From contig CALZJE010000001.1 of the NCBI GenBank assembly GCA_945787715.1, positions 75,127 through 126,918 of the forward strand: 51,792 nucleotides of DNA, read 5' to 3'. Positions 36,115 through 51,792 of this stretch are shown here, piece by piece. This DNA is from an uncultured Ectothiorhodospiraceae bacterium. GTDB taxonomy: Bacteria > Pseudomonadota > Gammaproteobacteria > S012-40. The position numbers and the translations under genes were made by a program. How positions within the stretch are numbered: the stretch's first letter is position 1; each line of letters begins with the position of its first letter. Under the pieces are notes generated by a model. The model had not been told where the DNA came from, made no database searches, and saw only the letters and a program-made list of their open reading frames with translations.

Positions 36115-36498
36115 ATGCGTCATAGAAATATTGGAAGACAATTAAGTCGAAACAGCAGTCACCGTAAAGCGACATTGCAGGCATTAACCGTGTCATTGCT
36201 TCGCTACGAGACTATTAAAACAACCTTAGCTAAGGCGAAAGAACTTCGTCGTGTTGCAGAGCCATTAATTACGAAAAGCAAAATTGATTCAGTGGCAAAT
36301 CGTCGTCTTGCTTTTGATCGTCTTCGGGATAAAGAAGTCGTAGGCAAACTATTTTCCGAATTAGGCCCTCATTTTAATGAAAGACCGGGCGGTTACGTGC
36401 GGATACTTAAGTACGGTTTTAGAGCTGGTGATAAAGCTCCTATGGCACTGGTTCAGTTAGTAGGTCGTGAAGAGATTAGTAGTAGCGAAGACGCCTAG
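36115..36498 (+). CDS. rplQ: 50S ribosomal protein L17
   Basis: L17 surrounds the tunnel exit. The 127-residue protein starts [20 protein letters not shown] and contains [20 protein letters not shown]. It is the last gene of the ribosomal block and is followed by a strong terminator. Confidence 0.98.
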
Positions 36499-36514
36499 TA
36501 GTTGCACTACAAAG

Positions 36515-36546
36515 TAAAAAAAGCCACTTCCTGAAGTGGCTTTTTT
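36515..36546 (+). terminator. Rho-independent terminator after rplQ
   Basis: GCCACTTC pairs with GAAGTGGC around CT, with A7 before and T6 after the stem, so it can act on both strands. It marks the end of the conserved block. Confidence 0.92.
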
Positions 36547-36633
36547 GTTTGTTAGGATTGAAAAATATTCTAAAGACATCGAATATATTATTTCAGCTTA
36601 GGAAAGGGTTTGTTCTTAATATAAGGAAACAAA

Positions 36634-36990
36634 ATGATTTCAAAAGAAGAGTTGATTAGGTCGTTCTTTTACTTTTCGCTAGTTGTGATCGGAGAGGTCG
36701 TTCTATATTTATCTACGTCCTATTTTATGATTACTAATGATTACACCTTGCCTGCAATGATATTTGTGTTTTTAATAATTGCATGGTTGTTAAAAACTAA
36801 TTTGAAAACTTTAGGATTAGTCTCTGTTCTTGTCGCCATATATGGTTGTGTTTCTTTCTTCACTCACTTTGTTGTCTATACAACAGAGTATCCAGTAACA
36901 TTAATTGATTTTGCTCCGACAATTATGATTAAGACACTAATATATACATTTCCAATCGCAGTAATAGTGGCACTATCTTCCAGGAAATAG
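36634..36990 (+). CDS. Hypothetical membrane protein
   Basis: I do not recognise this 118-residue protein. It has four hydrophobic segments, at about residues 9-30, 38-52, 58-80 and 92-114, with short loops and a basic end (SSRK), so it is probably a small inner-membrane protein. AAGGAAAC lies 7 bases before the ATG, a good ribosome site. It stands alone after the ribosomal block, in AT-rich DNA unlike the neighbouring genes. No function can be assigned. Confidence 0.65.
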   Translation: MISKEELIRSFFYFSLVVIGEVVLYLSTSYFMITNDYTLPAMIFVFLIIAWLLKTNLKTLGLVSVLVAIYGCVSFFTHFVVYTTEYPVTLIDFAPTIMIKTLIYTFPIAVIVALSSRK

Positions 36991-37696
36991 CAATATATTA
37001 AACTTGGTATGAATGCTGGTAGATAAGATTATGTATAATTACTTAGGAATATTGAGAGGAAGCGTTCACTATTCAAAACAGAATTCAATGTAGAATTTTG
37101 GAAATTGTATTGCCAATACCGGTAAACAAAAACATTAAGAATTAAACGACTTAAGCCTAATATGAGACAGGAGCTATTCATGTAATCAGATGTAGTTTTA
37201 ATGTTTCTGGTTAAGATAGCTAATGTAGATAAGGAATAATAAAATTTTCGGCCCTGTAATTAATGATTTAGTACCTATATTCCAAACATCCCACTAAAAA
37301 ACTATTTTCATATTTAATTTTGTAATTGCAAATCTATTGGTTTACTGACTAAAGCTCGGCAGGCCAGGCATACAGTATTGAATTTAGTATTAACTATGTC
37401 TCCCATTTATTTTGCTAGTACTAATGCGTAGTTTTAGATCTCAGGTGTGAAATCACTCACTTACTTATCAGTCCTTTATTTGCTCTATTATGTTGTTCAG
37501 TTGTTTCAAATCTGAATATTTTTGGTTGATATTAAGATATTAGTAGGCCGTTTTTTTACTCGAGTTTGAATTTTAACTGGAGGTATTCATAAGATAATTT
37601 TAATAGCCACGAGTACATCACATAATAGAAATTAATGACTTTTCTTGTCATTTCCTTTGACGATCTTATTCACAGAATAATTGTTGTGAGTATCCT
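36991..37696 (+). other. Gene-free AT-rich stretch
   Basis: About 700 bases with stop codons frequent in all frames. I see no tRNA, no clear repeat and no strong hairpin. Base use is much more AT-rich than the ribosomal block. A TTGACG near 37657 could be a -35 for the following gene, but no convincing -10 pairs with it. Confidence 0.6.
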
Positions 37697-38344
37697 ATGT
37701 CTTTAACAAAACATAAAAATCAACAAGGTTATCTACTTGTTCACGCAGTTGAACTGCTAGTTGGAATAAGCTTATTAGGAATAGCCGCATTCCACGGGCA
37801 AGATTGGTGGCAGGATTCAAAGCGAGATTCTTTCTACCAATCTTTAAAGGATTTAGAGACACTTGTTTGGGAGTATCGAGAAAACAATGGGAGATGGCCT
37901 GGGGATTGTAACAATAACGAGGTGATTGAGGGCGTTGTTGTTAGTATGGGGGAGGATGTTCAATTCAGAATTTCAAATGAGGAGCTGGATTTCGCTGACG
38001 ATTCATGTGCGGTAAATTCAGTCAGAGAATATCCTTCACATTTAATGTCAGAGCTGAGACAGTTTAAAATGAATACCTTTTTCATGGATTCTAAAGATAT
38101 TTTGAAATATTCGGATGAGATATCGTTTTACATTGGTTCGTTATTAATTGATGAGGATGTTAATCAAACAAATGCAATTATTGCAAATGGGATCTCAGAA
38201 GATTTAGCTGAGTGGCTGGAATTGAGGGTTGATGGTGAAGCAGAGTCGCAGAGTGTGAATTATTCAGGGAGAATAAGATTTTGGAAGCAGCCTCAAGGAG
38301 ATAGCATTCTTCTAACATATTTATTTGACTCGGATATATTATAA
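37697..38344 (+). CDS. Orphan prepilin-like protein
   Basis: The 215-residue product starts MSLTKHKNQQGYLLVHAVEL followed by LVGISLLGIAAF. This looks like a short basic leader, Gly, then a single hydrophobic helix containing Glu, as in type IV prepilins and type II secretion pseudopilins. The motif is degenerate, however: the Glu is at +8 rather than +5 after Gly11. The segment WEYRENNGRWPGDCNNNEVI resembles the post-helix part of many pseudopilins (YxxxxGxWPGDxNxDG). No pilus-assembly or secretion gene lies nearby. The Shine-Dalgarno is weak. A plain single-pass membrane or secreted protein is the alternative. Confidence 0.6.
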   Translation: MSLTKHKNQQGYLLVHAVELLVGISLLGIAAFHGQDWWQDSKRDSFYQSLKDLETLVWEYRENNGRWPGDCNNNEVIEGVVVSMGEDVQFRISNEELDFADDSCAVNSVREYPSHLMSELRQFKMNTFFMDSKDILKYSDEISFYIGSLLIDEDVNQTNAIIANGISEDLAEWLELRVDGEAESQSVNYSGRIRFWKQPQGDSILLTYLFDSDIL

Positions 38345-38388
38345 AAAGGCGAACATAGATAAACTTCCTTATTTTCGCTTTGGTTCGA

Positions 38389-38484
38389 TCACTTTCGCTT
38401 ATCTGAATTTCCGCCGTGCATGATCATTACAAGCGATATTTTTCGAAAGTCGATAGTTTCTCGATACAAATAGGCCGTTATATT
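38389..38484 (-). pseudogene. IS66-family TnpB N-terminal fragment (remnant)
   Basis: On the minus strand the frame reads NITAYLYRETIDFRK and then runs about 16 more residues to a stop. The YLYRxxxDFRK segment is the N-terminal signature of IS66 TnpB. The rest of TnpB and all of TnpC are missing, and the sequence after FRK does not continue normally, so this is a decayed, internally deleted copy. It lies directly downstream of the TnpA remnant, in the order expected for IS66. Confidence 0.55.
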
Positions 38485-38499
38485 CTGGCTAACACGACA

Positions 38500-38845
38500 T
38501 CATAGCTTCACCAATGTATGTATGAGCTGCGGTAAACCCGATGAGACGGACGGAATATCAATGTGAATCCCGTTATGGAGCGTTATTGTTATCCGAGTTC
38601 TGTTTGAAAGATCACCAGAAGGTAAAGAAGATACTTTAAGGAAAGCAGACTTTTTGTTTTCCACATTATCCATTTCTCACCTTTCCCAGTAGCTCCTTCA
38701 TCTGCAACAGATTTCGCCAATTGTACAATGCTTTAATATTCAGCTGATATTGTTCCGCATAATCAGCAAATGAAAGCTCACTATTCTTTGCGGTCAGTAT
38801 GTAGTTCAGCCAATACTGTTGTTTAAATGTGATATATGATTTCAT
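38500..38845 (-). pseudogene. IS66-family TnpA, frameshifted remnant
   Basis: The first frame (ATG at 38845, stop at 38666) gives 59 residues with a helix-turn-helix-like pattern: QQYWLNYILTAKNSELSFAD, then YAEQYQLNIKALYNWRNLL. Insertion-sequence TnpA proteins of IS66 type share W..(x)..S..S...YC(x)..L....Y.WR. A second frame (38673 to 38500) continues with 57 residues, including TRITITLHNGIHIDIPS, like the TnpA C-terminus. The two join at about 38670 through one frameshift. Together they make about 116 residues, a normal TnpA size. I found no complete inverted repeats. Confidence 0.6.
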
Positions 38846-38980
38846 TATGACTCCTATTTCTGGGTGCCAGTATAATAGGTGATGGAATTTGTAAAGATAG
38901 ATGGGGTTTAATTTGCGCTTATGTCCAAATTAGGAGGGAGGGCAATAATGAAGATTGGTAATTTGTGTTTCGGCAGCGCA

Positions 38981-39013
38981 AAAATAATACCTGCATAAAG
39001 CAGGTATTATTTT
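38981..39013 (-). terminator. Terminator of the S8 peptidase gene
   Basis: AAAATAATACCTGC and GCAGGTATTATTTT form a perfect 14-bp stem around ATAAA, 13 bases beyond the peptidase stop codon. It is flanked by A and T runs, so it can act on both strands. Confidence 0.85.
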
Positions 39014-39026
39014 GTGAGTATCACAA

Positions 39027-40883
39027 TTATTTGCGTCCTTTGCCACCGCCTCTAGGTTTGGTTTTTCCGTTTCCAGAAGAGCTTGATCCAATCGTAAAGT
39101 TGATTGCTGATAAGCTGGTATTCCCTGCTAAATCAAATGCCTCAGCGCTAATTGAGTGACTACCTTCTTTTAATTTTTTCGTATTAATGGGGCAAGAGAG
39201 AGGGCTAATATTGCTACTGGCAACAAGAGCTCCATTTATGTAGCAATAGATCATGGATAGTCCGACATCATCGCTAGCCTCAATGGTAACTTTCATGTTC
39301 GATAACAAAATTGCATCATTGATTAGATTTCTAATATAAACAGATGGTGGCGTTGAATCCATCGCTATATTATTCGCTATGGTAATTTCGATAACTGAAG
39401 TATTCGTATTGCCATAACTATCTGTTGCTGTTGCGCTTAATGTATAAGGACCATCGGCGAGTTGCGTTGTGTCTAGGCTGATACTTATCTGGTCTCCATT
39501 CACGCTGGATAATAGCTGTTCGTCAATTGCTGAAACTAAGTTGAGCACAAGAGTGTTTACAGAAGTATTGTCAGTGGCAAAAACGCTTACACTGGCTATT
39601 CCCGATAATTGGGTATTCGTTAGATCAAAATTGATAGATGGTGGCGTTGCATCAGGTGTTGGGTTATCAGCGCCTCCAGTAGTTTGTTGTGCCAATAGAA
39701 CTGCTGCACGCGCATCAACTCGGCCATGTCCATAATAAACATCAAATCCTCCATTACCAAGATCTAGAGCACTTTGCTCAAGGATATTTTCCATTTGATC
39801 AGGTGTTAGATTCCAGTTGGCAGATTTAATGAGCGCAAGAATGCCCGCTGTTAGAGGCGCAGAAAAGGATGTGCCTGATACTGCGGCATAACCACCCCCA
39901 TTGCTTGTCGTGTAGATTCCAGCACCAGGCGCTGCTACATCGACGAAGCTGCCATATGACGACCAACTCGTTTTTTGATCGCTCGATGAAGTGGCTGAAA
40001 CAGATATCAAATTTATGCTATCGCCGAAAGACCATTGACTTCCATCATTGCCAGCGGAAACAACCATAATTCCACCTTTCTCTTTAAGGTAAGCTGCCGC
40101 AGAATTAACACTAGAAGAGGATGTTAGCGCATAACTTGCGTTGACAATGTGGGCGCCATTGTTAGCAGCCCATGTAACACCTTCCGCAAGATCACTGGTG
40201 TATGCTGAGCCACCGCTTTGGTTAGAGACTCTTATAGGTAATATGTGAGAATCCCACGCTATGGAAGTGACACCTTGGGCGTTATTACTTATTGCGCCAA
40301 TAACACCCGCTACTTTCGTGCCGTGACCGGCCACGTCACTTGTATTGTTTGTATTATCAACCGTATTAATTCCTTGCAACACTTTACCTTGCAGATCAGG
40401 GTGGTTTGAGTCAACACCTGTGTCAAGCACTGCGACAACAACGCTTTTTCCGCTACTTAGATCCCATGCGATTGGGGCATTAACTTTTGGTAGATGCCAC
40501 GAAGCGTTAAAGTAAGTGTCATTTGGATAGGTTTCTTCCAACGAATGCACTTGGTCGGTTTCTGCGAACTTTATATTTGGATTGTGGGATAGTGCTCGAG
40601 CAAGGGCCTCTTCAGCGCCTACTGGGACGTTAATTATTCTGACATTTATTGCATTAATAATTGCCCGCTGATTAGCGTTGTGAGATCGCAACAGGCGAGA
40701 AAGTGTGGTTTCTGAAACACCTTGAGCTGGTTTTATCAGAATTCTACCGGGTGCGAACTCTGCGCCTGCCGAAAAAACAGGTGTCGCAGCTAAGCTGTAA
40801 CCCAAGGTTGTTAAAAGCAGTAGTGATAATTTTGATTTTTTGAAAGCAGAACGAAATGTTTGGAGGTCAGATTTACAATTCAT
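39027..40883 (-). CDS. Secreted subtilisin-like serine peptidase (S8) with Ig-like repeats
   Basis: The 618-residue protein is an extracellular protease. The ATG at 40883 gives MNCKSDLQTFRSAFKKSKLS and a hydrophobic signal ending near PVFSAG; longer in-frame starts give no signal peptide. A propeptide (about residues 40-130, RILIKPAQG to IKFAETDQV) precedes the catalytic domain. The triad is Asp154 (AVLDTGVDSNHPDL), His187 (GHGTKVAGVIGA) and Ser339 (GTSFSAPLTAG). Two Ig-like units, each starting TPPS, follow from about residue 435. The tail GNGKTKPRGGGKGRK is basic and glycine-rich. It is a single-gene unit next to the sugar operon; a role in remodelling surface or matrix proteins is inference. 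Confidence 0.93.
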   Translation of the reverse strand: MNCKSDLQTFRSAFKKSKLSLLLLTTLGYSLAATPVFSAGAEFAPGRILIKPAQGVSETTLSRLLRSHNANQRAIINAINVRIINVPVGAEEALARALSHNPNIKFAETDQVHSLEETYPNDTYFNASWHLPKVNAPIAWDLSSGKSVVVAVLDTGVDSNHPDLQGKVLQGINTVDNTNNTSDVAGHGTKVAGVIGAISNNAQGVTSIAWDSHILPIRVSNQSGGSAYTSDLAEGVTWAANNGAHIVNASYALTSSSSVNSAAAYLKEKGGIMVVSAGNDGSQWSFGDSINLISVSATSSSDQKTSWSSYGSFVDVAAPGAGIYTTSNGGGYAAVSGTSFSAPLTAGILALIKSANWNLTPDQMENILEQSALDLGNGGFDVYYGHGRVDARAAVLLAQQTTGGADNPTPDATPPSINFDLTNTQLSGIASVSVFATDNTSVNTLVLNLVSAIDEQLLSSVNGDQISISLDTTQLADGPYTLSATATDSYGNTNTSVIEITIANNIAMDSTPPSVYIRNLINDAILLSNMKVTIEASDDVGLSMIYCYINGALVASSNISPLSCPINTKKLKEGSHSISAEAFDLAGNTSLSAINFTIGSSSSGNGKTKPRGGGKGRK

Positions 40884-41120
40884 ATAATTTTCTCTGATAA
40901 AGAATTTATTAGCGTAATGCATTATTATTGCCAAAATAACATGGGTAAAAAATAGTGATGACAAGTGAATAAGATCTGCGCGATATGTCTATTTGATCAG
41001 CAGATTAAAGAGTGAAAGAGGATATTAATGTCGAAGAAAAGTCATTAATGAATTCCATGTCAGAACGATTGTATTTAAGTGTAGGGGGATGGCGACAAGG
41101 TGTAAGATTTTACAACAAGA

Positions 41121-41157
41121 AAAGTTTCGACAGCATTTGACGAAAAATGCTGTCGAA
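41121..41157 (-). terminator. Terminator of the nucleotide-sugar operon
   Basis: TTCGACAGCATTT pairs with AAATGCTGTCGAA (13 bp). On the minus strand it is followed by ACTTTTCTTG. It lies 9 bases beyond the stop of the epimerase gene. Confidence 0.8.
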
Positions 41158-41165
41158 GATTGTTT

Positions 41166-42173
41166 TTATACTTTGTAATAATCTCTATACCAATCAACAA
41201 AGTTCGCAATGCCGGTTTCTATAGGTGTGCTTGGTTTAAAGCCAACATCATTAATTAAAGCATCTACATTCGCATATGTTGCAGGCACATCGCCAGGTTG
41301 TAATGGTAAATAATTTTTATCTGCTTTTTTACCAATACACTCTTCAATGATTTCTATATAACGCATGAGCTCAACAGGTTTGTTATTACCTATGTTGTAT
41401 ATGCGGTAAGGCGCTTTGCTTGTTGCAGTATCAGGATCGTCCCCGCTCCAGTTCTCATTTGGAGAAGCCACACTATCAAGTGTGCGAATGACGCCCTCGA
41501 CTATATCGTCGATATAGGTGAAATCGCGTTTGTGTTTTCCATGATTAAATACATCAATAGGTTTTCCTTCGATGATGTTCTTAGTGAACATAAAAAGAGC
41601 CATATCGGGACGACCCCATGGGCCGTAGACCGTAAAAAAACGTAAGCCTGTAGTCGGTAGATCATATAAATGACTATAGGTATGAGCCATTAATTCGTTA
41701 GCTTTTTTGCTTGCGGCATATAAGCTTACTGGATGGTCTACATTATGGTGAACGGAAAAAGGCATTTTCTCATTTGCACCATATACTGAGCTACTGGATG
41801 CATAAACCAAATGCTCAACATTGTTGTGTCTGCAGCCTTCCAATATATTGGTGAATCCCATAATATTGGAGTCAATGTAGGAGTAAGGATTGATTAGCGA
41901 ATATCGAACACCTGCCTGAGCGGCCAAATTAACTACGCGCTGTGGTTTGTGTTTGGCAAAAGTGTCCTGCATTGCATCTCTATCCTCGATGCTAATGCGA
42001 ACTTCAGTGAAGTTTGGATGATCTTTTATTTTTGCCAATCGTGCTTCTTTCAGAGAAACTTCGTAGTAATCATTGACGTTATCTATACCAATGATTTCAT
42101 CACCTCGATCTAGTAAGCGCTGTGCTAGTGAGCTACCGATGAAGCCGGCTGTGCCTGTAATTAATATTTTCAT
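41166..42173 (-). CDS. NAD-dependent epimerase, probable UDP-glucuronate 4-epimerase
   Basis: The 335-residue short-chain dehydrogenase/epimerase starts with the NAD motif GTAGFIG. It has the catalytic YxxxK in [12 protein letters not shown] and the subgroup signature [12 protein letters not shown] found in UDP-GlcA 4-epimerases. It would convert UDP-glucuronate to UDP-galacturonate, using the product of the ugd gene in the same operon. A UDP-HexNAc uronate epimerase acting after the TviB-type enzyme is the alternative. It lies 15 bases after the preceding gene and is the last of three. Confidence 0.85.
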
Positions 42174-42188
42174 TTAAAAACTCTTTGT

Positions 42189-43466
42189 TTAAAGTCTGCC
42201 ATCAACTTGATCTTTTGGTAGCAGCGCTTTGACATCATATAAAACAGAATCAGATTTGCCCAAGGCGCGAATTTTATCGGCTCCCATTGCGACAAATTCT
42301 TTATGTGATACTGCAAGAATAATTGCATCGTAAGTGCCATTCTTGAGTTCACTCATTGGAGTTATTCCGTATTCGTGTTGTGCTTCTTCTGAGCTTACCC
42401 ATGGGTCATAAACATCAACCTGTGCATAGTAATCTTTTAATGTATCAATGATATCAGTTACTCGTGTGTTACGAAGATCTGGGCAATTTTCTTTGAATGC
42501 TAGCCCCATAACGAGAATTTTTGAGTCGACAACATGGATGCGTTTTTTTGTCATCATACGCACAACTGATTCAGCGATATGTTCGCCCATATTATCGTTG
42601 ATACGACGACCTGATAAAATAACTTCTGGATTGTAACCTATCTCGGTTGCCTTATGTGTTAGGTAATATGGATCAACACCTATACAGTGTCCGCCAACAA
42701 GGCCGGGCCTGAAAGGAAGAAAATTCCATTTTGTTCCCGCTGCTTCAAGGACTTCTAGCGTATCAATGCCTAGCTTACCAAAGATCAATGATAATTCGTT
42801 AACGAGAGCAATGTTTACATCACGCTGCGTATTCTCGATAACCTTTGCGGCTTCTGCTACACGAATGCTACTTGCTAGGTGAGTACCTGCTGTTATAACT
42901 GTTTTATACAAATCATCGACAAATTTAGCGGACTCAGGCGTAGATCCAGAAGTGACTTTTAATATATTTGTTACTCGATGTTCTTTATCACCTGGATTGA
43001 TTCGCTCGGGGCTATAACCCACGAAAAAGTCTGTATTGAATTTTAAGCCTGAGGCTTTTTCAATTAAAGGAACGCAGTCTTCTTCGGTTGCGCCGGGATA
43101 AACGGTAGATTCATAAATTACCACATCACCTTTGCTGATAACTTCGCCAAGCATTTTGGACGCGCCAATTAAAGGGCTCAGGTCTGGACGTTTGTAATTA
43201 TCAATCGGCGTTGGGACTGTGACGATATAACAATTGCAGGATTTTAGGTCGTCGCGACTTGCTGTGTACGCCAGTTTTGTCGCCTGCGCCAGCTCTGTTG
43301 GTTCAACTTCCAAAGTGCTGTCTTGTCCAGATTTCAATTCTTCGACACGGTCTACCTTGATGTCGAACCCGATTGTGTCGAATTTTTTACCAAATTCTAC
43401 CGCTAATGGTAAGCCTACATAGCCTAAACCGAGTATTCCAATTTTAACGTTTTTTAATTCCAACAT
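42189..43466 (-). CDS. Nucleotide-sugar dehydrogenase of TviB/WbpO type (UDP-HexNAc 6-dehydrogenase)
   Basis: The 425-residue protein has the NAD site [18 protein letters not shown] and the catalytic Cys in [19 protein letters not shown]. The central and C-terminal UDP-sugar domains are complete. The sequence belongs with TviB/WbpO rather than Ugd, which oxidise UDP-GlcNAc or UDP-GalNAc to the uronic acid for capsules and O-antigens. AAGGGA lies about 9 bases before the ATG. It is the middle gene of the operon; the exact substrate is not shown by sequence alone. Confidence 0.88.
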
Positions 43467-43496: not shown

Positions 43497-44831
43497 TTAA
43501 GAACAAGACCTGCCGCGGCCCATGCCAAAGTATTCAATTCCTTGTTTTTCCACAGTATCAGGATCGTAAATATTTCTTCCATCGAAGATAACGGCATTGT
43601 TAAGTTTATCTTTGATTAACTTGAAGTCAGGGCTTCGAAACAGCCTCCACTCTGTAACAACAATCAGTGCATCAGCATGCTCTAAAGTTGTATTTGAATC
43701 TTCGCAAATGATGAAATCATCTCTTTGTCCATATATTCGTTGTGCTTCATCAGCGGCTTCAGGGTCATATGCTTTGACTTTTGCTCCGGCATCCCATAAT
43801 GCTTCCATTAGAACGCGACTAGGTGCATCCCGCATATCATCTGTATTGGGTTTGAATGCAAGCCCCCATAATGCAAATGTTTTTCCTTGCAGATTGCTAT
43901 TGAAGTAACTGTTAATTCGCTCGAATAGTTTGTGCTTTTGGCGATTATTAACATCTTCAACCGCTGTTAATAGTTGAGAGTCATAACCGATGCTTTTTGC
44001 TGTCTTTTCTAATGCTTTAACATCTTTCGGGAAACAAGAACCACCATACCCACAACCTGGATAGATAAAATGGTAGCCAATTCGAGGATCAGAACCAATA
44101 CCCAATCGGACACTTTCTATATCAGCACCTAGTTTTTCCGCAAGATTGGCCAACTCGTTCATGAAGGTGATTTTAGTTGCTAACATGGCATTAGCGGCAT
44201 ATTTGGTAAGTTCTGCAGACCGAATATCCATATCAACTAATCGATCATGGTTGCGGTTAAATGGCGCGTAAAGCGCCTTAAGGAGTTCAACTGTCCTGGG
44301 ATTGTCAGTACCAATAACAATTCGATCAGGCTTCATGAAATCATCAATTGCTGCACCTTCTTTTAAAAACTCAGGATTCGAAACAATATCGAACTCACAT
44401 CCAAGCTCTCTCTTATCTAATGCATTTTGAACGGTATTACGAACTTTATCTGCAGTGCCGACTGGTACAGTTGATTTGTCAACAATGACTTTGTATTCGG
44501 ACATGTTCTCGCCAATAGATTTTGCAACTGCCAGGACATATTGTAAATCAGCAGATCCATCTTCATCGGGAGGTGTGCCCACAGCAATAAATTGGAATAA
44601 TCCATGATTTACACCTTCTGTAACATCGGTTGTAAAGGATAGTCGGCCTTCTTTAACATTTCGCGTAATCATTGCTTCAAGGCCTGGTTCATAGATGGGA
44701 ACCCCACCATTATTGAGCATGTCGATTTTGTTTTTGTCGATGTCAACACATACAACATTGTTGCCTACTTCAGCTAAGCATGTTCCTGTTACAAGGCCTA
44801 CATAGCCACTGCCAAATATAGTTACATTCAT
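43497..44831 (-). CDS. ugd: UDP-glucose 6-dehydrogenase
   Basis: The 444-residue enzyme oxidises UDP-glucose to UDP-glucuronate with two NAD. It has the N-terminal NAD motif [17 protein letters not shown], the catalytic Cys in [18 protein letters not shown] and the C-terminal domain ending [26 protein letters not shown] lies 7 bases before the ATG. It is the first gene of the minus-strand operon, with 30 bases to the next gene. Confidence 0.95.
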
Positions 44832-45172: not shown

Positions 45173-46555
45173 ATGGTTCGACTATTTAAACATTACATAC
45201 CTAAATCACTGCTAGTTATGAGCATGGTTGAAATGCTTTTGTGTATCCTGGCTGTTTATTTGGGTGTTCTGCTTCGATTTGATTTTCAGTCTGATGAAGC
45301 ACATAAGTTTGTTTTTTCCTCTGCATTGGTTTTTGCTGCTGTGGTTTTCAGTTCCATGGCTACAATGGGTCTTTATCAAAGACATCTACGCGATGGTCGA
45401 CGAGGTATGTTTATCCGAATCTGTGTGGCATTTGCCATTAGTTTCGGAGTTATGAGTATGCTTTTTTATCTATTCCCTGAGGTAACATTAGGCCGGGGAG
45501 TATTTGCTTACACATTCATCATGGCGCTCGCTGGCGTAATGGTTACTCGTGCTATCTATATTAAAGTGACAAATAGAGAAGATTTAAAGCGTAGAATTTT
45601 AATTGTTGGTACTGGTGAAAAAGCTAATCTGATAGAGACGCTTTTAAAACGTAAAACCGACAGGCGGGGATTTAAAATTGTTGGTTATGTTTCCGTCAGT
45701 GGCGAGGAAGTGCTTGTTCCCGAAAATGAAGTGATTCAACATAAGAAAACATTGATGAACATCGTGGAAGAAACTGACGCTGATGAGATTGTGCTTGCAA
45801 TTACTGACCGGAGAAAGGGATTTCCTGTTGAGGAATTGCTCGATTGCAAAATGAGCGGTGTGGAAGTTTCCGATATTGCAACATTGTTTGAACGTCAGTC
45901 AGGGCGGATTATTCTTGATCTTCTTCATCCGAGCTGGTTGATTTTCTCTGATGGTTTTGCGCATGGATTGGCTCGCGATGCTGTAAAGAGAACCTTTGAT
46001 ATCGTTGCGAGTTCTTTGTTGCTATTATTTACCTTTCCTATTATGTTGGTAACAGCATTATTGATATACCTGGAAGATAGAGGCCCAGTTTTTTATCGAC
46101 AGGTAAGAGTAGGAAAGAACTGGAAACTGGTTCATGTCATGAAGTTTCGCAGTATGAGAACAGATGCTGAAAAAAACGGGGTGCAATGGGCAAAAGCAGA
46201 TGATGATCGAGTAACCAGAATCGGGAAGTTTATCCGAAAAACTCGAATAGACGAACTCCCGCAGATGTTTAATGTACTGCGTGGAGATATGAGTTTTGTA
46301 GGGCCCAGACCTGAACGCCCCCAATTTGTTGAGCAATTTTCGGAATCTATACCATTTTATGCAGAACGTCACCGAGTTAAACCTGGCGTTACCGGTTGGG
46401 CTCAAATCTCTTACCCCTACGGCGCTTCGGAAAAAGATACCATAGAAAAATTGCAATATGATTTATATTATGTGAAAAACTATAGCATTTTTCTGGATCT
46501 GACTGTCTTGTTTCAAACAGCAGAGGTTATTTTGTGGGGCAAAGGAGCGAGATAG
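45173..46555 (+). CDS. Undecaprenyl-phosphate sugar phosphotransferase (exosortase-associated EPS type)
   Basis: This 460-residue enzyme would transfer the first sugar-1-phosphate onto the lipid carrier to prime exopolysaccharide synthesis at the inner membrane. It has four predicted N-terminal membrane helices and a Rossmann-like middle domain (ILIVGTGEKANLIETLL). One more helix (about residues 277-297) precedes the catalytic domain with KFRSMRTDAEKNG and RIDELPQMFNVLRGDMSFVG PRPE. The whole resembles the sugar transferase family tied to PEP-CTERM/exosortase loci, which fits prsK-prsR downstream. No strong Shine-Dalgarno precedes the ATG. The sugar donor is unknown. Confidence 0.9.
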   Translation: MVRLFKHYIPKSLLVMSMVEMLLCILAVYLGVLLRFDFQSDEAHKFVFSSALVFAAVVFSSMATMGLYQRHLRDGRRGMFIRICVAFAISFGVMSMLFYLFPEVTLGRGVFAYTFIMALAGVMVTRAIYIKVTNREDLKRRILIVGTGEKANLIETLLKRKTDRRGFKIVGYVSVSGEEVLVPENEVIQHKKTLMNIVEETDADEIVLAITDRRKGFPVEELLDCKMSGVEVSDIATLFERQSGRIILDLLHPSWLIFSDGFAHGLARDAVKRTFDIVASSLLLLFTFPIMLVTALLIYLEDRGPVFYRQVRVGKNWKLVHVMKFRSMRTDAEKNGVQWAKADDDRVTRIGKFIRKTRIDELPQMFNVLRGDMSFVGPRPERPQFVEQFSESIPFYAERHRVKPGVTGWAQISYPYGASEKDTIEKLQYDLYYVKNYSIFLDLTVLFQTAEVILWGKGAR

Positions 46556-46575: not shown

Positions 46576-48657
46576 ATGCCATTTAATATTGGCGCTGTTA
46601 ATTACGCCATAACTGCTTTTTTATTTGCCTTTCTAAGCGTACTTCTCCTGACTGTCTGGCGTGGACGTCTCCATGGTTTGCTTTTTTTTCTTGTTTGCTT
46701 ATTTACTGCAATCTGGGCTTCAATAGCTGCCTATTCTGCCCAATATGGATATTCTTTAAGTTTTAATGTTATTGCATCCGAGCTTGTAAAGAATGCAGTC
46801 TATGCTGCGTTCCTTATCCAGTTATTTCGAAATTCAAATCACTACCATAGCAAACATTTTCTCAAGTTTGTTGCTCGGGCCGCGATCATATTTCCCTTTC
46901 TTTTATTGACACTCATTGTTTATTTAAAGTACATACAGGCCGCCCCATCTTGGTTGGGTTTTGATTTGCGAGTTTTTAGTCATATCTTGATTGCACTGTT
47001 TGGTTTATCTTTATTGGAGCAAATTTTTCGCAGTATTAAATCAGAGCAGCTTTGGGCTCTCAAGTTTTTGTGCTTTGGCTTTGGGGCTCTCTATGCATTC
47101 GATTTTCTACTCTACAGTGATGCATTATTATTTAAACGTATAAATATCGATCTGTGGGACGCGCGAGGAATTGTTGATGCACTCGCGCTATGCTTAATTG
47201 CCATAGCTGTTCACCGGAATCCTCAGGCAGAGTCGCTAGTGAATATTTCTCGATCAGCCGTTTTTTATACGACGGCTTTGATTGCCGCTGGCGCTTATTT
47301 GATCATAATGTCTGCGGGAGGATTTTATCTAAAATCGTTCGGTGGTGATTGGGGAGCTGTAGTCGCATATACATTTTTATTCACTGCTGTTTTATTTTTA
47401 ATAATTCTTGTTTTTTCGGGTCATATCCGAGCACGCATACGTGTTTTCATTGATAAGCATTTTCTTGACTACAAATATGATTATCGCGCTCAATGGCTGG
47501 GATTAATCAGGGATTTGTCGATTGAAAATGCAGCGCTATCATTAGAAAACAGAGCGCTAAATGCGCTTACTGAAATGATGGATAGCCCTGGGGGGAGTTT
47601 GTGGGTAAAGCACAATCAACGTTTTTATTCTCCAGTTGCAATTTTAGGTATGAGTGAGTTGGAAAAAGAAACAGAGCCGCGCGATGGGCTACTAGCGAAA
47701 TTTCTTGAAAAGTGGCAATGGGTGATAAATCTTGATGAATTTAAATCAGAGCCTGATCTATATCGAGAACTGACATTGCCAGATTGGATAGTAAATTCAC
47801 CAAAAGCCTGGCTTATTGTGCCTTTAATGTTACAGGCTGAACTATATGGTTTTGTCGTTATTGCTAGGCCCCGCGCAGAAAAAGATTTCAATTGGGAAGA
47901 TATCGATTTATTAAAAACCGCCGGTCGCCAAGTCGCAGTCCATTTAGCACAAGACCGATCAGCATTAGCATTAATTGAAGCTCGTCAATTTGAGGCATTC
48001 AATCGATTTTCTGCGTATGTGGTCCATGATTTAAAAAATCTGGTCTCCCAGCTAGCACTTGTGGTGAAAAATGCGGAAAAGCATAAACACAATCCCGCCT
48101 TTATGGATGATGCAATACTAACAGTGGATAATGCAGTTGAAAGAATGAACCGTTTACTTGCTCAACTAAGAACAGGAGCTGTGACGGATAAATTTAATGA
48201 AAGCGTAGATTTGACGAAAATTATAGCCACCGTTGTCAGGGAAAAGAGAAATATGAAACCTGTTCCAGTGGCTAAGTTGAACCAAGAGCATGTTTTTGTT
48301 GCTGCTAATGAAGCGAGACTTGTTTCTGTTATCGGTCATTTGGTGCAAAACGCGCAGGATGCAACTGCTGATACTGGAGAAATTGTGATAAATCTGTATC
48401 TTCAAAGTGATAATGCAATTCTGACAATTCGTGATACTGGTGGGGGTATGGATGCTGAATTTATAAAAAGCCGACTGTTTGAACCGTTTGTCACTACTAA
48501 AGGATTAACAGGAATGGGAATAGGTGCACATGAATCTCGTGCATATATTGAAGAACTTGGCGGTACATTGGAAGTTGAAAGTGAGAAGGGTGTTGGATCA
48601 ACATTTTTTATTACGTTACCTTTGAGTGGAAAAAAAGAACCGGAAAGTGAATTGTGA
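46576..48657 (+). CDS. prsK: Histidine kinase PrsK (exosortase/PEP-CTERM system)
   Basis: The 693-residue sensor kinase has about eight N-terminal membrane helices (residues 1-290), a GAF-like cytoplasmic domain (about 305-465) and a dimerization helix with the phospho-acceptor His484 in VVHDLKNLVSQ. The ATPase domain has N box HLVQNAQDA, G1 DTGGGMD and GMGIGAHESRAY. This is the architecture of PrsK, the kinase paired with PrsR in PEP-CTERM exopolysaccharide loci. GAAGGA lies 10 bases before the ATG, and the gap to the sugar transferase is 20 bases, so they are co-transcribed. The signal sensed is unknown. Confidence 0.92.
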   Translation: MPFNIGAVNYAITAFLFAFLSVLLLTVWRGRLHGLLFFLVCLFTAIWASIAAYSAQYGYSLSFNVIASELVKNAVYAAFLIQLFRNSNHYHSKHFLKFVARAAIIFPFLLLTLIVYLKYIQAAPSWLGFDLRVFSHILIALFGLSLLEQIFRSIKSEQLWALKFLCFGFGALYAFDFLLYSDALLFKRINIDLWDARGIVDALALCLIAIAVHRNPQAESLVNISRSAVFYTTALIAAGAYLIIMSAGGFYLKSFGGDWGAVVAYTFLFTAVLFLIILVFSGHIRARIRVFIDKHFLDYKYDYRAQWLGLIRDLSIENAALSLENRALNALTEMMDSPGGSLWVKHNQRFYSPVAILGMSELEKETEPRDGLLAKFLEKWQWVINLDEFKSEPDLYRELTLPDWIVNSPKAWLIVPLMLQAELYGFVVIARPRAEKDFNWEDIDLLKTAGRQVAVHLAQDRSALALIEARQFEAFNRFSAYVVHDLKNLVSQLALVVKNAEKHKHNPAFMDDAILTVDNAVERMNRLLAQLRTGAVTDKFNESVDLTKIIATVVREKRNMKPVPVAKLNQEHVFVAANEARLVSVIGHLVQNAQDATADTGEIVINLYLQSDNAILTIRDTGGGMDAEFIKSRLFEPFVTTKGLTGMGIGAHESRAYIEELGGTLEVESEKGVGSTFFITLPLSGKKEPESEL

Positions 48658-48714: not shown

Positions 48715-50067
48715 GTGGCCAAAAAAGATACACTACTTGTTGTTGAAGATGACCATGGTATACAAAGCCAGCTTAAGTGGAGTTTCGATGATTATGACGT
48801 CGTAATTGCCGGCGACCGCGAGGAAGCACTCTCGCTTCTGAGGAGGCACGAGCCAAAAGTTGTTACCTTAGATATGGGCCTGCCTCCAGATCCCGGAGGA
48901 ACAACTGAAGGTTTAGCTACTCTACAGGAGATATTAGAATTATCGCCAAAAACAAAAGTTGTAGTCGTTACCGGAAATGATGATAGAGAATCCGCTGTAA
49001 GAGCGATTGGTATTGGCGCCTACGATTTTTATCTAAAGCCTATTGATGCAGATATTCTCGGATTAATTGTGAATCGCGCGTTTCGTGTTCGTGAACTCGA
49101 AGATGAGAATGAGCGTTTAGGTAGTGGGGAAGGAGAGTCACCTCTATCTGGTTTAATTGCTTCAAGTGTACAAATGTTAAAAGTTTGTCGGACCGTAGAA
49201 AAAGTCGCGCCAACCAATGCGACAACATTGCTACTTGGTGAAAGTGGGACTGGTAAAGAAGTTCTTGCTAAAGCTCTCCATGAGCTAAGCCCCCGTTCTG
49301 AAAAAAGATTTGTGGCTATAAATTGTGCTGCCATACCTGACAATCTATTAGAGAGCGAGCTTTTTGGATACGAAAAGGGTGCATTTACGGGAGCAGCTAA
49401 ACAGACTTTAGGTAAGATCGAGGTTGCTAATGGTGGAACCTTGTTCTTAGATGAGATTGGCGACTTACCTATGGGATTGCAAGCAAAATTACTACGTTTT
49501 CTCCAAGAACGAGTGATAGAGCGTGTAGGTGGGAGGCAAGAAATTCCAGTTGATGTGAGAATAGTATGTGCAACTCATCGTGGCTTGCCTAATATGATCA
49601 GTGGTGGTGATTTTCGCGAAGATTTGTATTACCGCTTAAGTGAAATCACAATAAATATTCCCGCAGTACGTGAAAGAGAAGGAGATGCCGTTTTATTAGC
49701 GCGAACTTTTATAGAAAAGTTTGCTAAAGAGCAGGGGAAAAAAACGCCGGCTTTAGCAAAAGATGCTTTATTGGCTATCGAAAATTACCAATGGCCGGGG
49801 AATGTTCGAGAAATGGAAAATAAAGTCAAACGCGCAATAATTATGTTCGATGGTAATCAGATAGCCTCTGAAGACTTAGAGCTAGAAGATGTTGAACAAA
49901 TGAACATGCCGTTTAATCTACGTGAAGTCCGTGAAGAAGCCGAACGCAAAGCTGTATTACGAGCGCTGCATCATGTAAATAGCAATATCGCTCAAGCTGC
50001 CGAGTTGCTAGGTGTTAGTCGACCTACGCTTTATGACTTGATCAAGAAGCTAAGTATAAACATTTAA
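48715..50067 (+). CDS. prsR: Sigma-54-dependent response regulator PrsR
   Basis: The 450-residue regulator starts with GTG after TTAAGGGG. Its receiver domain has the acidic pair Glu11-Asp12-Asp13, phospho-acceptor Asp53 and a conserved Lys (YLKPID). The AAA+ domain has Walker A GESGTGKE (residues 175-182) and the sigma-54 contact loop GAFTGA (residues 222-227). A Fis-type helix-turn-helix ends the protein (NIAQAAELLGVSRPTLYDLI). It directly follows prsK and is its likely partner. Targets should carry -24/-12 promoters; none was seen in this window, so they probably lie to the right. Confidence 0.94.
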   Translation: MAKKDTLLVVEDDHGIQSQLKWSFDDYDVVIAGDREEALSLLRRHEPKVVTLDMGLPPDPGGTTEGLATLQEILELSPKTKVVVVTGNDDRESAVRAIGIGAYDFYLKPIDADILGLIVNRAFRVRELEDENERLGSGEGESPLSGLIASSVQMLKVCRTVEKVAPTNATTLLLGESGTGKEVLAKALHELSPRSEKRFVAINCAAIPDNLLESELFGYEKGAFTGAAKQTLGKIEVANGGTLFLDEIGDLPMGLQAKLLRFLQERVIERVGGRQEIPVDVRIVCATHRGLPNMISGGDFREDLYYRLSEITINIPAVREREGDAVLLARTFIEKFAKEQGKKTPALAKDALLAIENYQWPGNVREMENKVKRAIIMFDGNQIASEDLELEDVEQMNMPFNLREVREEAERKAVLRALHHVNSNIAQAAELLGVSRPTLYDLIKKLSINI

Positions 50068-50107: not shown

Positions 50108-51792
50108 ATGACGCATAGACTCATTAAAAAAACGTTTTTACTTTTTTTATTATGGTTACCTTTATCTGTTTATTCGACGAGCGTTGATGAATATATTAAG
50201 GATGCAAATATTTATATTGATAAGCAGGATTTCAAAGCAGCTATTATTCAGCTTAAAAATGCATTGCAGCAAGATTCGACAAGCAAAGAAGCACGTGCGC
50301 TACTTGGACAAACTTATTTGAAGGTAGGTGATGTTTTGCCTGCTGAAAAAGAGTTGCGTAAGGCCAAGCGTGCGGGTGCTGCTGCCACTGAATGGATGCC
50401 ATATCTTGCAGATGTATATTTGGCTCAAAACAAAGCGAATGAAGTAATAGAGGAGTTGAAAACTGATGACTCTATGCCGAAAGAGTTGCGTGCAGAAATG
50501 CTTGTTCGCTATGGGCAGGCCTATTTTTTAATGAGGGAAGTCGATAAATCCCTCGATCAATATGAAAAAGCAGTTAAACTTAATCCAAATCATACCAGTG
50601 CATTGCTCGGTATAGCTCAAATTTCTCTGTTTAGCAAAGACTTTAAAGCTGCTCAAACTAATACCAATAAAGCAATTGAAGGCAATCCTCAAAATGTGCG
50701 AGCGCTTACCTTTGCTGGTGAAATTTCTCGCATCCAAGGTGATTATAAAAATGCAGTAGAAGCTTATGAAAAAGCACTTGCTGTGAGGTCTCAGTACATT
50801 CCCGCATTAGGTGGTTTGGCTTCTTCGTTAGTGTCCCTGCAAGAGATTGACGAAGCGAATAAAACGATAGGGAAATTGTTGTCAATTAATAAAAATTATC
50901 CTAACGCGCATTATTTAAAAGCATTGATAGCGGCACAGGAGAATGATTTGAAAAGCGCTGAAGATGCGTTGCAACAGGTATTGCGGATTACAGAAGATCA
51001 CATGACGGCAATATTGTTAATGGGGCGTGTGCAATACGAAAATAAAAATTTCGAGCAAGCTGAAAAATATTTAAAGCAGTTTAATAATAAATTCCCCAAG
51101 CATCTACCTACTGTTAAATTGTTAGCGACAACACGATTAAAACTTAGAGACTTTAATGGAGCGGAAAAACTATTAACTGACATTGAGCCAAGTGCCTCAA
51201 ATGATCCGGGTGTTTTAAGCTTGCTAGGAATGGTCTATGCGCAAAGCGGAGACGTTGCAAAGGGTACTGAGTATTTTGAGCGCGCAACGATAATTGCGCC
51301 TGATCAAGCACAATTACAAGCCCAGCTCGGTGTAAGCCACTTAGCTGAAGGCGATATAGGCGAAGCAATCAAAAATTTGGAATCGGCTGTCAAACTGGAT
51401 GCAACTGACTCGCGAACAGATATGATGCTAATACTCGCTCACTTGCGCAACAAAGACTATGATAACGCGTTAAATGTTGCAAAGGCGTATGTGGAAAAAG
51501 ATCCTAAAAATCCGATTACTTATAATTTTATGGCGGCGGCATATAGTGGGAAAAAGGATTACGCAAAAGCGAGGCGCACATTAGAAAAAGCGTTATTAAT
51601 TAAACCAGATTTTAGTGCAGCAGAGATCAACCTAGCACGTATAGATTTGGCAGAAAATTTCCCTGGCGAGGCTAAAAAACGATTTAAGAATATTATTCGC
51701 TACGACGGAAAGAATGTCGAAGCTCACATGGAATTGGCAAAACTCGCCATTTCACAAAACAATAAAGAGGAAGGTTTGCATTGGATCAAGGA
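50108..51792 (+). CDS. prsT: PrsT-type TPR protein of the exosortase system (3' end outside window)
   Basis: The frame from ATG 50108 stays open to the window end, giving 561 residues. A signal peptide (basic MTHRLIKK, hydrophobic LFLLWLPLSV) is followed by about fourteen tandem 34-residue TPR units, for example AAIIQLKNALQQDSTSKEAR and NAVEAYEKALAVRSQYIPAL. Size, composition and position after prsR match the PrsT TPR lipoprotein family of PEP-CTERM loci. Unlike most members, the signal region has no Cys, so no lipobox is visible. It lies 40 bases after prsR with AAAGAGAAG upstream. A periplasmic scaffold for polysaccharide export is the likely role by family. Confidence 0.88.
   Translation, partial: MTHRLIKKTFLLFLLWLPLSVYSTSVDEYIKDANIYIDKQDFKAAIIQLKNALQQDSTSKEARALLGQTYLKVGDVLPAEKELRKAKRAGAAATEWMPYLADVYLAQNKANEVIEELKTDDSMPKELRAEMLVRYGQAYFLMREVDKSLDQYEKAVKLNPNHTSALLGIAQISLFSKDFKAAQTNTNKAIEGNPQNVRALTFAGEISRIQGDYKNAVEAYEKALAVRSQYIPALGGLASSLVSLQEIDEANKTIGKLLSINKNYPNAHYLKALIAAQENDLKSAEDALQQVLRITEDHMTAILLMGRVQYENKNFEQAEKYLKQFNNKFPKHLPTVKLLATTRLKLRDFNGAEKLLTDIEPSASNDPGVLSLLGMVYAQSGDVAKGTEYFERATIIAPDQAQLQAQLGVSHLAEGDIGEAIKNLESAVKLDATDSRTDMMLILAHLRNKDYDNALNVAKAYVEKDPKNPITYNFMAAAYSGKKDYAKARRTLEKALLIKPDFSAAEINLARIDLAENFPGEAKKRFKNIIRYDGKNVEAHMELAKLAISQNNKEEGLHWIK

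Follow-up and report, generated by a model that had tools for sequence, protein, structure and literature searches.

The window analysed here, by which is meant the whole stretch of 51,792 nucleotides, represents positions 75127-126918 of contig C1 of a 4.4-Mb genome (G000) comprising 227 contigs. Located at 37697-38344 (+) is an open frame encoding a pilin-like protein of 215 residues, for which the coordinates were verified and the ATG is the first start codon of the frame. Of 13 genomes from the order, nine, the window genome among them, carry a class B gene, as this gene and its relatives are designated below. Upstream, rplQ is followed by an open reading frame at 36634-36990 (+) for a hydrophobic protein of 118 residues with no match in Pfam or NCBIfam, and by non-coding DNA at 36991-37696 with the lowest GC content (0.300) among the stretches measured. 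An earlier note placed the gene in accessory AT-rich DNA, which is accurate for overall composition (GC 37.5% versus 42.0% for the window) but not for third codon positions, where the GC3 of 0.333 is like that of rplQ (0.312) and PrsK (0.311). No RNA family reached the gathering threshold in 36400-41300, and a scan for sigma-70 promoters was uninformative, with 8 sites versus 10.8 in shuffled sequences.

Downstream, the region at 38500-38860 (-) contains two short open reading frames and is probably the remnant of an insertion element, showing a match to HTH_Tnp under the cut-off (E 0.042) and having a second copy (81%) on contig C55. The adjacent gene at 39027-40964 (-) encodes an S8 subtilase with Ig-like domains (PF00082, E 3.2e-50) and a C-terminal tail rich in Lys, Arg and Gly; it occupies the spot where relatives have the pilin-like gene beside the epimerase. 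The remnant and subtilase separate the pilin-like gene from a block of sugar genes 2.8 kb away. The nearest of these, at 41166-42173 (-), is convergent with the pilin-like gene and its homologues adjoin class B genes in other genomes. Its product, which matched no NCBIfam family at the threshold used (E≤1e-50), we take from its sequence to be a probable NAD-dependent sugar epimerase. The block continues with a TviB-type nucleotide-sugar dehydrogenase at 42189-43466 (-) and a nucleotide-sugar dehydrogenase like UDP-glucose 6-dehydrogenase at 43497-44831 (-), over the cut-offs of PRK15182 and TIGR03026 respectively. The forward strand then encodes the XrtA/PEP-CTERM system glycosyltransferase TIGR03013 at 45173-46555 (598.7 bits, cut-off 393.35), the sensor kinase PrsK at 46576-48657 (TIGR02916, 746.9 bits, cut-off 300), the response regulator PrsR at 48715-50067 (TIGR02915, 737.7 bits, cut-off 502.6) and, at 50108-51790, the TPR protein PrsT (TIGR02917, 495.5 bits, cut-off 312.2), which is cut by the end of the window and contig. 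The set of PrsK, PrsR, PrsT and TIGR03013 is referred to here as the XrtA locus. Exosortase A was without a match in G000, the contig of which ends inside PrsT, and in the order genomes G001 and G006.

The protein had been described as an orphan lacking pilus or type II secretion genes in its vicinity. This is borne out by the entire 126.9-kb contig, on which no PF00437 ATPase, PF01478 prepilin peptidase or other pilin was found at E≤0.001, although the description overlooked the nearby PEP-CTERM-type exopolysaccharide locus. Other contigs of the same genome contain such pilus genes, with two hits to PF01478, and encode a type II secretion system (C45), a type IVa system (C17) and an MSHA-like system (C22) as read from the sequence and BLAST labels.

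The defining feature of pilins is a conserved helix that carries Glu at position +5 (Glu5) of the mature protein. The window protein has a class III signal, a leader ending in Gly followed by a hydrophobic helix. The leader (residues 1-11; 37697-37729) is basic and ends with Gly11, aligned with the Gly-1 of canonical members, and the helix from +1 to +24 (37730-37801) has a mean Kyte-Doolittle value of 1.50 and lies within a predicted helix of residues 9-64. The mature protein would begin Y+1 L L V H+5 A V E+8, with His (37742-37744) at the position occupied by Glu in filament subunits and a Glu at +8 (37751-37753) that occurs otherwise only in the other genome of the genus. Residues 67-74 are WPGDCNNN. 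The earlier account of a Gly, one hydrophobic helix, Glu at +8 and WPGDCNNN is therefore correct to the residue, whereas its interpretation is sustained only in part. Kinship with pilins is supported, as set out below. A displaced Glu is not supported, as no gap is needed at the cleavage site, the +5 residue varies among class B proteins and Glu at +8 is found in two of nine; nor is cleavage at an unusual site, since Gly-1 is the ordinary one. Cleavage after Leu14, which would place the Glu at +5, was discarded in view of the absence of a preceding Gly and the family alignment that fixes Gly11.

The WPGDC motif (37895-37909) is invariant in 19 aligned sequences, the window copy included. Presumably, the extended family motif WPGDC[ND]x[DN]G (37895-37921 in the window) resembles the DxNxDG calcium loop, the DG being absent from the window copy. 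Cys104 (38006-38008), invariant in an alignment of 15 family members and nearly so in one of 12 proteins, is a possible disulfide partner of Cys71 judged from the sequence. In the GRIRFW motif of the pilin domain (38267-38284) the G, both R and the W are invariant in the 12-protein alignment, in which the window copy is without the second conserved Trp and without the Gly of the WPGDCNxDG motif. The C-terminus is FDSDIL, and no PEP-CTERM model was among NCBIfam matches at E≤10; thus, the sorting signal expected of a substrate was not detected.

Searched singly, the window protein gave zero matches in Pfam at E≤10, PF07963 included, and none to TIGR02532 at E≤10; the sole NCBIfam match was to a prepilin-type model with an E of 0.058, and the closest solved chain by sequence was meningococcal PilE (E 0.16). 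A profile built from 15 family members reached geopilin and PilE at approximately 1e-6, mostly via the helix and the turn following it. A search of 56 genomes recovered relatives covering most of the length in nine, the own genome included, for a total of 12 genes with E values from 1e-10 to 1e-18 apart from the self match, all within the GTDB family of the window. All nine carriers belong to the 13 order genomes examined, which are themselves of this one family. The full-length alignment of the 12 proteins revealed 16 invariant columns, among them WPGDC, N159, D179-G180 and G.R.R.W.

The AlphaFold2 model of the window protein consists of the helix at residues 9-64 and six strands (pLDDT 70, pTM 0.67). 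The best PDB alignment was with PilW of C. difficile (Z 7.1, rmsd 3.7, 114 aligned), a Z below 8 being weak by itself, followed by the CFA/III pilin of ETEC (Z 6.7, rmsd 4.4, 148 aligned) and a next row at 3.5. Foldseek returned nothing at E≤0.001, with protein kinases ranked first. A class A relative, described below, folded from the same 15 sequences gave a pLDDT of 83 and the first 14 rows were all type IV pilins, led by PilA1 (Z 9.1, rmsd 3.4, 125 aligned), with the CFA/III pilin (8.4, 4.5, 167) and TCP (7.9, 4.0, 148) also among the best; Foldseek placed a pilin first at E 2.9e-3, above 0.001. On the question raised by the earlier note, whether the protein only looks like a pilin, the relatives and the full-length homology to canonical pilins with Glu5 indicate that the resemblance is not due to chance and that the protein is a true pilin homologue; the predicted helix-plus-sheet model, of which the two best PDB entries are pilins at middling Z, points the same way.

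Relatives in the order fall into two classes. Class A, present in three genomes (G004, G008 and G009), has the N-terminus GF[TS]LIEL with Glu5, and all three proteins are over the cut-offs of both PF07963 and TIGR02532. Class B comprises nine proteins, those of the window (G000), G001, G008, G007, G009, G004, G010, G011 and G005, all with open frames. The +5 residue is His in the window protein, Asn in G001, G008 and G004, Thr in G007, Lys in G009, Asp in G010 and Met in G011 and G005; Glu5 is found in none of the nine versus 10 of 10 other members with WPGDC (Fisher p 1e-5, with rows that are not independent). Gly-1 is retained in seven of the nine and replaced by Ala in G011 and Thr in G005, which belong to one genus, so that six of eight members besides the window protein have the signal of Gly followed by a helix, absent from G005 and G011. 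Glu at +8 is confined to the window protein and G001, also of one genus. PF07963 matched none of eight class B proteins scanned singly, the ninth (G005) having been scanned only within the 15-member set, of which 8 of 15 matched, equal to the number of canonical members it contains.

The 10 other WPGDC members are the three of class A and seven loci distributed over six other genomes, of which five bear the titles Hydrogenophaga, Polaromonas or Comamonadaceae and one is an alphaproteobacterial MAG; two of the loci (L032 and L036) share one MAG. All seven are canonical pilins with Glu5. They derive from a scan of 84,980 species for [RY]WPGDC[ND]x[DN], which confirmed 14 loci from 28 pattern matches and which members with other motifs would escape. 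A whole-protein profile identified 10 of 369 genomes in a sample of the class at E≤1e-15, two in the order and eight outside, the latter all with canonical Glu5 pilins. With a profile of the domain only at E≤1e-5, 2 of 369 class genomes were recovered, both in the order, and 4 of 398 phylum genomes, the own genome and three with four partial matches. Three of these four places outside the order are canonical Glu5 pilins, L105 being the fourth. The tree places class B on one side of a branch with a support of 40/0, present in 41% of bootstrap trees, which is too low for a single loss of Glu5 in class B to be read from it. Full-length class A is absent from three genomes with class B (G000, G005 and G007, rated 95-100% complete and fragmented), for which reason class B is probably not merely a helper of a class A pilus. 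The class B protein of G010 (L020, 7418-8065, -) has a short HExxH-like stretch and weak metalloprotease/metzincin matches under the cut-offs, a sequence resemblance that is probably due to chance.

The two classes differ in neighbourhood. Downstream of class A come an unnamed gene and genes for a T2SSE-type ATPase and a GspF-type protein, joined in G004 and G009 by secretin and AAA genes; both ATPases that were scanned showed an MshEN domain or an MshE-related motif, and the class A contig of G008 ends in two more pilin genes. Each of the seven outgroup stretches likewise combines two or more genes of the set ATPase, GspF, secretin, MshM-like and MshN-like, as determined by BLAST to genes of the class A operon. 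No open reading frame grouping with pilus ATPases, GspF or other pilins was recognised in any of the nine class B neighbourhoods fetched; the open reading frames of the neighbourhoods were called with a greedy six-frame script that leaves starts uncertain and may mask some genes. Instead, class B is tail-to-tail with a nucleotide-sugar dehydrogenase/epimerase block in seven of nine (seven of eight genomes besides the window), adjoining and converging with the epimerase in G004, G005, G007, G008, G010 and G011 and with a sugar dehydrogenase in G009. The G001 gene is flanked on one side by ahcY and on the other by an unnamed gene, beyond which is a coaX-like gene with a match under the cut-off. 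The upstream neighbour varies by genome (uup, purC, uppP or divergent genes), and for this reason the class B gene looks mostly to stand alone.

TIGR03013 and PrsK are on the same stretch as class B in six of nine genomes (G000, G004, G008, G009, G010 and G011). For G005 and G007 the stretch with class B is limited to the sugar block, TIGR03013 being on another contig and, in G005, PrsK only below the cut-off. The co-occurrence is imperfect: four genomes (G002, G003, G006 and G012) have TIGR03013 without class B, and G001 (80% complete) has class B, TIGR03013 not having been found and PrsK being only below the cut-off. A sigma-54 promoter tying class B to PrsR, a sigma-54-type regulator, was also considered and dropped, no shared site of this type being found in the 300 bases upstream of the nine class B and three class A genes; low shuffle counts were obtained only for the class B gene of G008 (6/200) and for the epimerase gene (3/200), one of seven control genes of the window.

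Class B has diverged more than class A in the same three genomes, where pairs of class A proteins are 55-66% identical and pairs of class B 26-37%, with identities over the helix (+1 to +24) of 0.88-0.92 and 0.08-0.38 respectively. The mean pairwise identity of class B is 0.32 with 17 positions invariant in all nine, and the window protein and that of G001 are approximately 31% identical overall and at 9 of 24 positions of the helix. The sole close pair, G005 and G011, yielded a dN of 0.196 and a saturated dS of 2.0, for a rough dN/dS near 0.1; the N-terminal 50 codons (dN 0.19, dS 2.36) were no looser than the rest (0.20, 1.93). The helix is more conserved than the domain in 10 of 10 pairs for GspK, 13 of 15 for GspJ, 15 of 15 for GspI, 20 of 21 for GspH, 17 of 21 for GspG and three of three for class A, versus nine of 36 for class B, the secretion rows being those in seven fetched stretches with some cut at the motif inside longer frames. 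When the first five residues were left out, the ratio was 0.90 for class B (14 of 36 pairs), 1.02 for the seven members with Gly-1 (12 of 21), 1.11-1.60 for the type II secretion pseudopilins and 1.53 for class A. The seven canonical outgroup rows also gave a ratio below 1 (0.86, 6 of 21 pairs), and the comparison was abandoned as a means of separating class B from all filament pilins.

We interpret class B as an inner-membrane-anchored protein of pilin fold that has been retired from filament building, with a probability of about 0.5. The gene product has a common ancestor with the canonical WPGDC pilin encoded in MSHA-like type IV pilus operons, but may no longer act as a repeating filament subunit. 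Prepilin peptidase would either cut the protein or leave it uncut, and it would stay in the inner membrane with the helix in the membrane and the pilin domain in the periplasm. That domain could act in binding or signalling, plausibly as part of a surface-polysaccharide or envelope function. It is solely from location that we infer a link of class B to exopolysaccharide, and the convergent orientation, which precludes co-transcription with the sugar genes, speaks against this interpretation. A more specific role, in which the unpolymerised domain senses the state of the envelope or pilus machinery, for example relaying to PrsK, or aids the polysaccharide machinery, is unlikely.

Retention of Gly-1 in seven of nine, as in a processed prepilin, is evidence against retirement. 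Glu5 is outlined as dispensable for processing and needed for homopolymers, with tip subunits able to do without (PMC4471445, PMC5207764). For a protein with Gly-1 and lacking Glu5, processing can therefore be followed by residence in the membrane or by initiation of a filament. The main rival reading, possible though we doubt it, is that class B is a minor pilin at a filament tip in the manner of GspK, cleaved by the peptidase and entering as the first subunit for which Glu5 is not needed. The filament could be the MSHA-like pilus, type IVa pilus or type II secretion system of the genome, all of which are present along with the two PF01478 hits, and precedents are the GspK family without Glu5 and TcpB, which starts assembly without needing it (PMC5207764). 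However, the +5 residue of class B is H, N, T, K, D or M versus Thr in five of five GspK of the same order, the helix of those five GspK is conserved (0.65-0.70), and the window protein with 215 residues is not larger than class A (220-225). No minor-pilin cluster was found, a pilin neighbour being recognised in none of nine stretches, and Gly-1 is lost in the genus of G005 and G011 (g5). Retirement with a membrane anchor is preferred over a tip location based on the variable +5 residue, the loss of Gly-1 while the gene is kept, survival without class A, and location.

That Glu at +8, one helix turn on, stands in for Glu5 and pairs with the following subunit's N-terminus in an ordinary filament is highly improbable. 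The residue is found in both genomes of the genus despite a protein identity of only ∼31%, but the 9 of 24 helix positions common to the two make one shared residue not striking; furthermore, seven of nine class B proteins are without it and pilus genes are absent nearby. A decaying, functionless pilin copy, near the sugar block by descent only, would explain the long branches (2.29 for the window, 0.18-1.33 for other class B and 0.17-0.35 for class A) and the second conserved Trp and motif Gly missing in the window copy, and the convergent position needs no common function. We regard decay as quite unlikely in view of nine of nine intact frames at a mean identity of 0.32, the 17 invariant positions and, in the one comparable pair, the dN/dS of ∼0.1 with dS saturated.

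One lineage thus contains the same pilin in a canonical and a Glu5-less version, both together in three genomes. The Glu5-less version has been kept intact in all nine of its genomes, even where, in one genus, the cleavage Gly has gone. Such a natural series allows one to ask what a pilin domain can do when it does not polymerise, and whether parts are common to pilus and PEP-CTERM exopolysaccharide systems. The interest would be local only if a tip subunit or decaying copy proves true. Literature searches combining pilins with PEP-CTERM, exosortase or exopolysaccharide brought up no paper with a title or abstract opening that describes a canonical pilin having a Glu5-less sister class next to a PEP-CTERM-type locus. 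Already known, as outlined in the sources cited, are Glu5-less pilins in the form of GspK and of archaeal pilins (PMC4471445), and pseudopilins within a polysaccharide locus (PMC4284469); most type II secretion and type IVa systems are described as having one minor pilin with a hydrophobic +5 residue (PMC5207764).

The closest known proteins are the WPGDC pilins of MSHA-like operons (class A and those of Comamonadaceae), which share with class B full-length homology, WPGDC, the segment like GR.R.W and a similar or somewhat larger size, and which, unlike class B, have Glu5 and pilus-assembly genes nearby. The tip pseudopilin GspK/XcpX of type II secretion resembles class B in the absence of Glu5 and the pilin-type N-terminal helix. 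GspK is distinct in being encoded with other pseudopilins, with Thr at +5 in five of five and a conserved helix; it is also larger with an inserted domain as described in PMC5207764. The type IVb pilins CofA/TcpA and PilA1 of C. difficile, which the class A relative matches best in fold, build filaments, unlike the reading proposed for class B; sequence identity over the first 14 rows is 8-14%. In placement, class B is analogous to the cyanobacterial HpsB/C/D/H, the pseudopilin genes of which are reported inside the hormogonium polysaccharide locus (PMC4284469); that locus is a different one in another phylum, and class A gives only weak helix matches to models of HpsB and HpsC. Finally, the minor pilins of P. 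aeruginosa that act on FimS-AlgR and the pilin-like CpaL of Caulobacter are reported to influence two-component or holdfast output (PMC5979040, PMC12607857), and these proteins are tied to a pilus or its tip.
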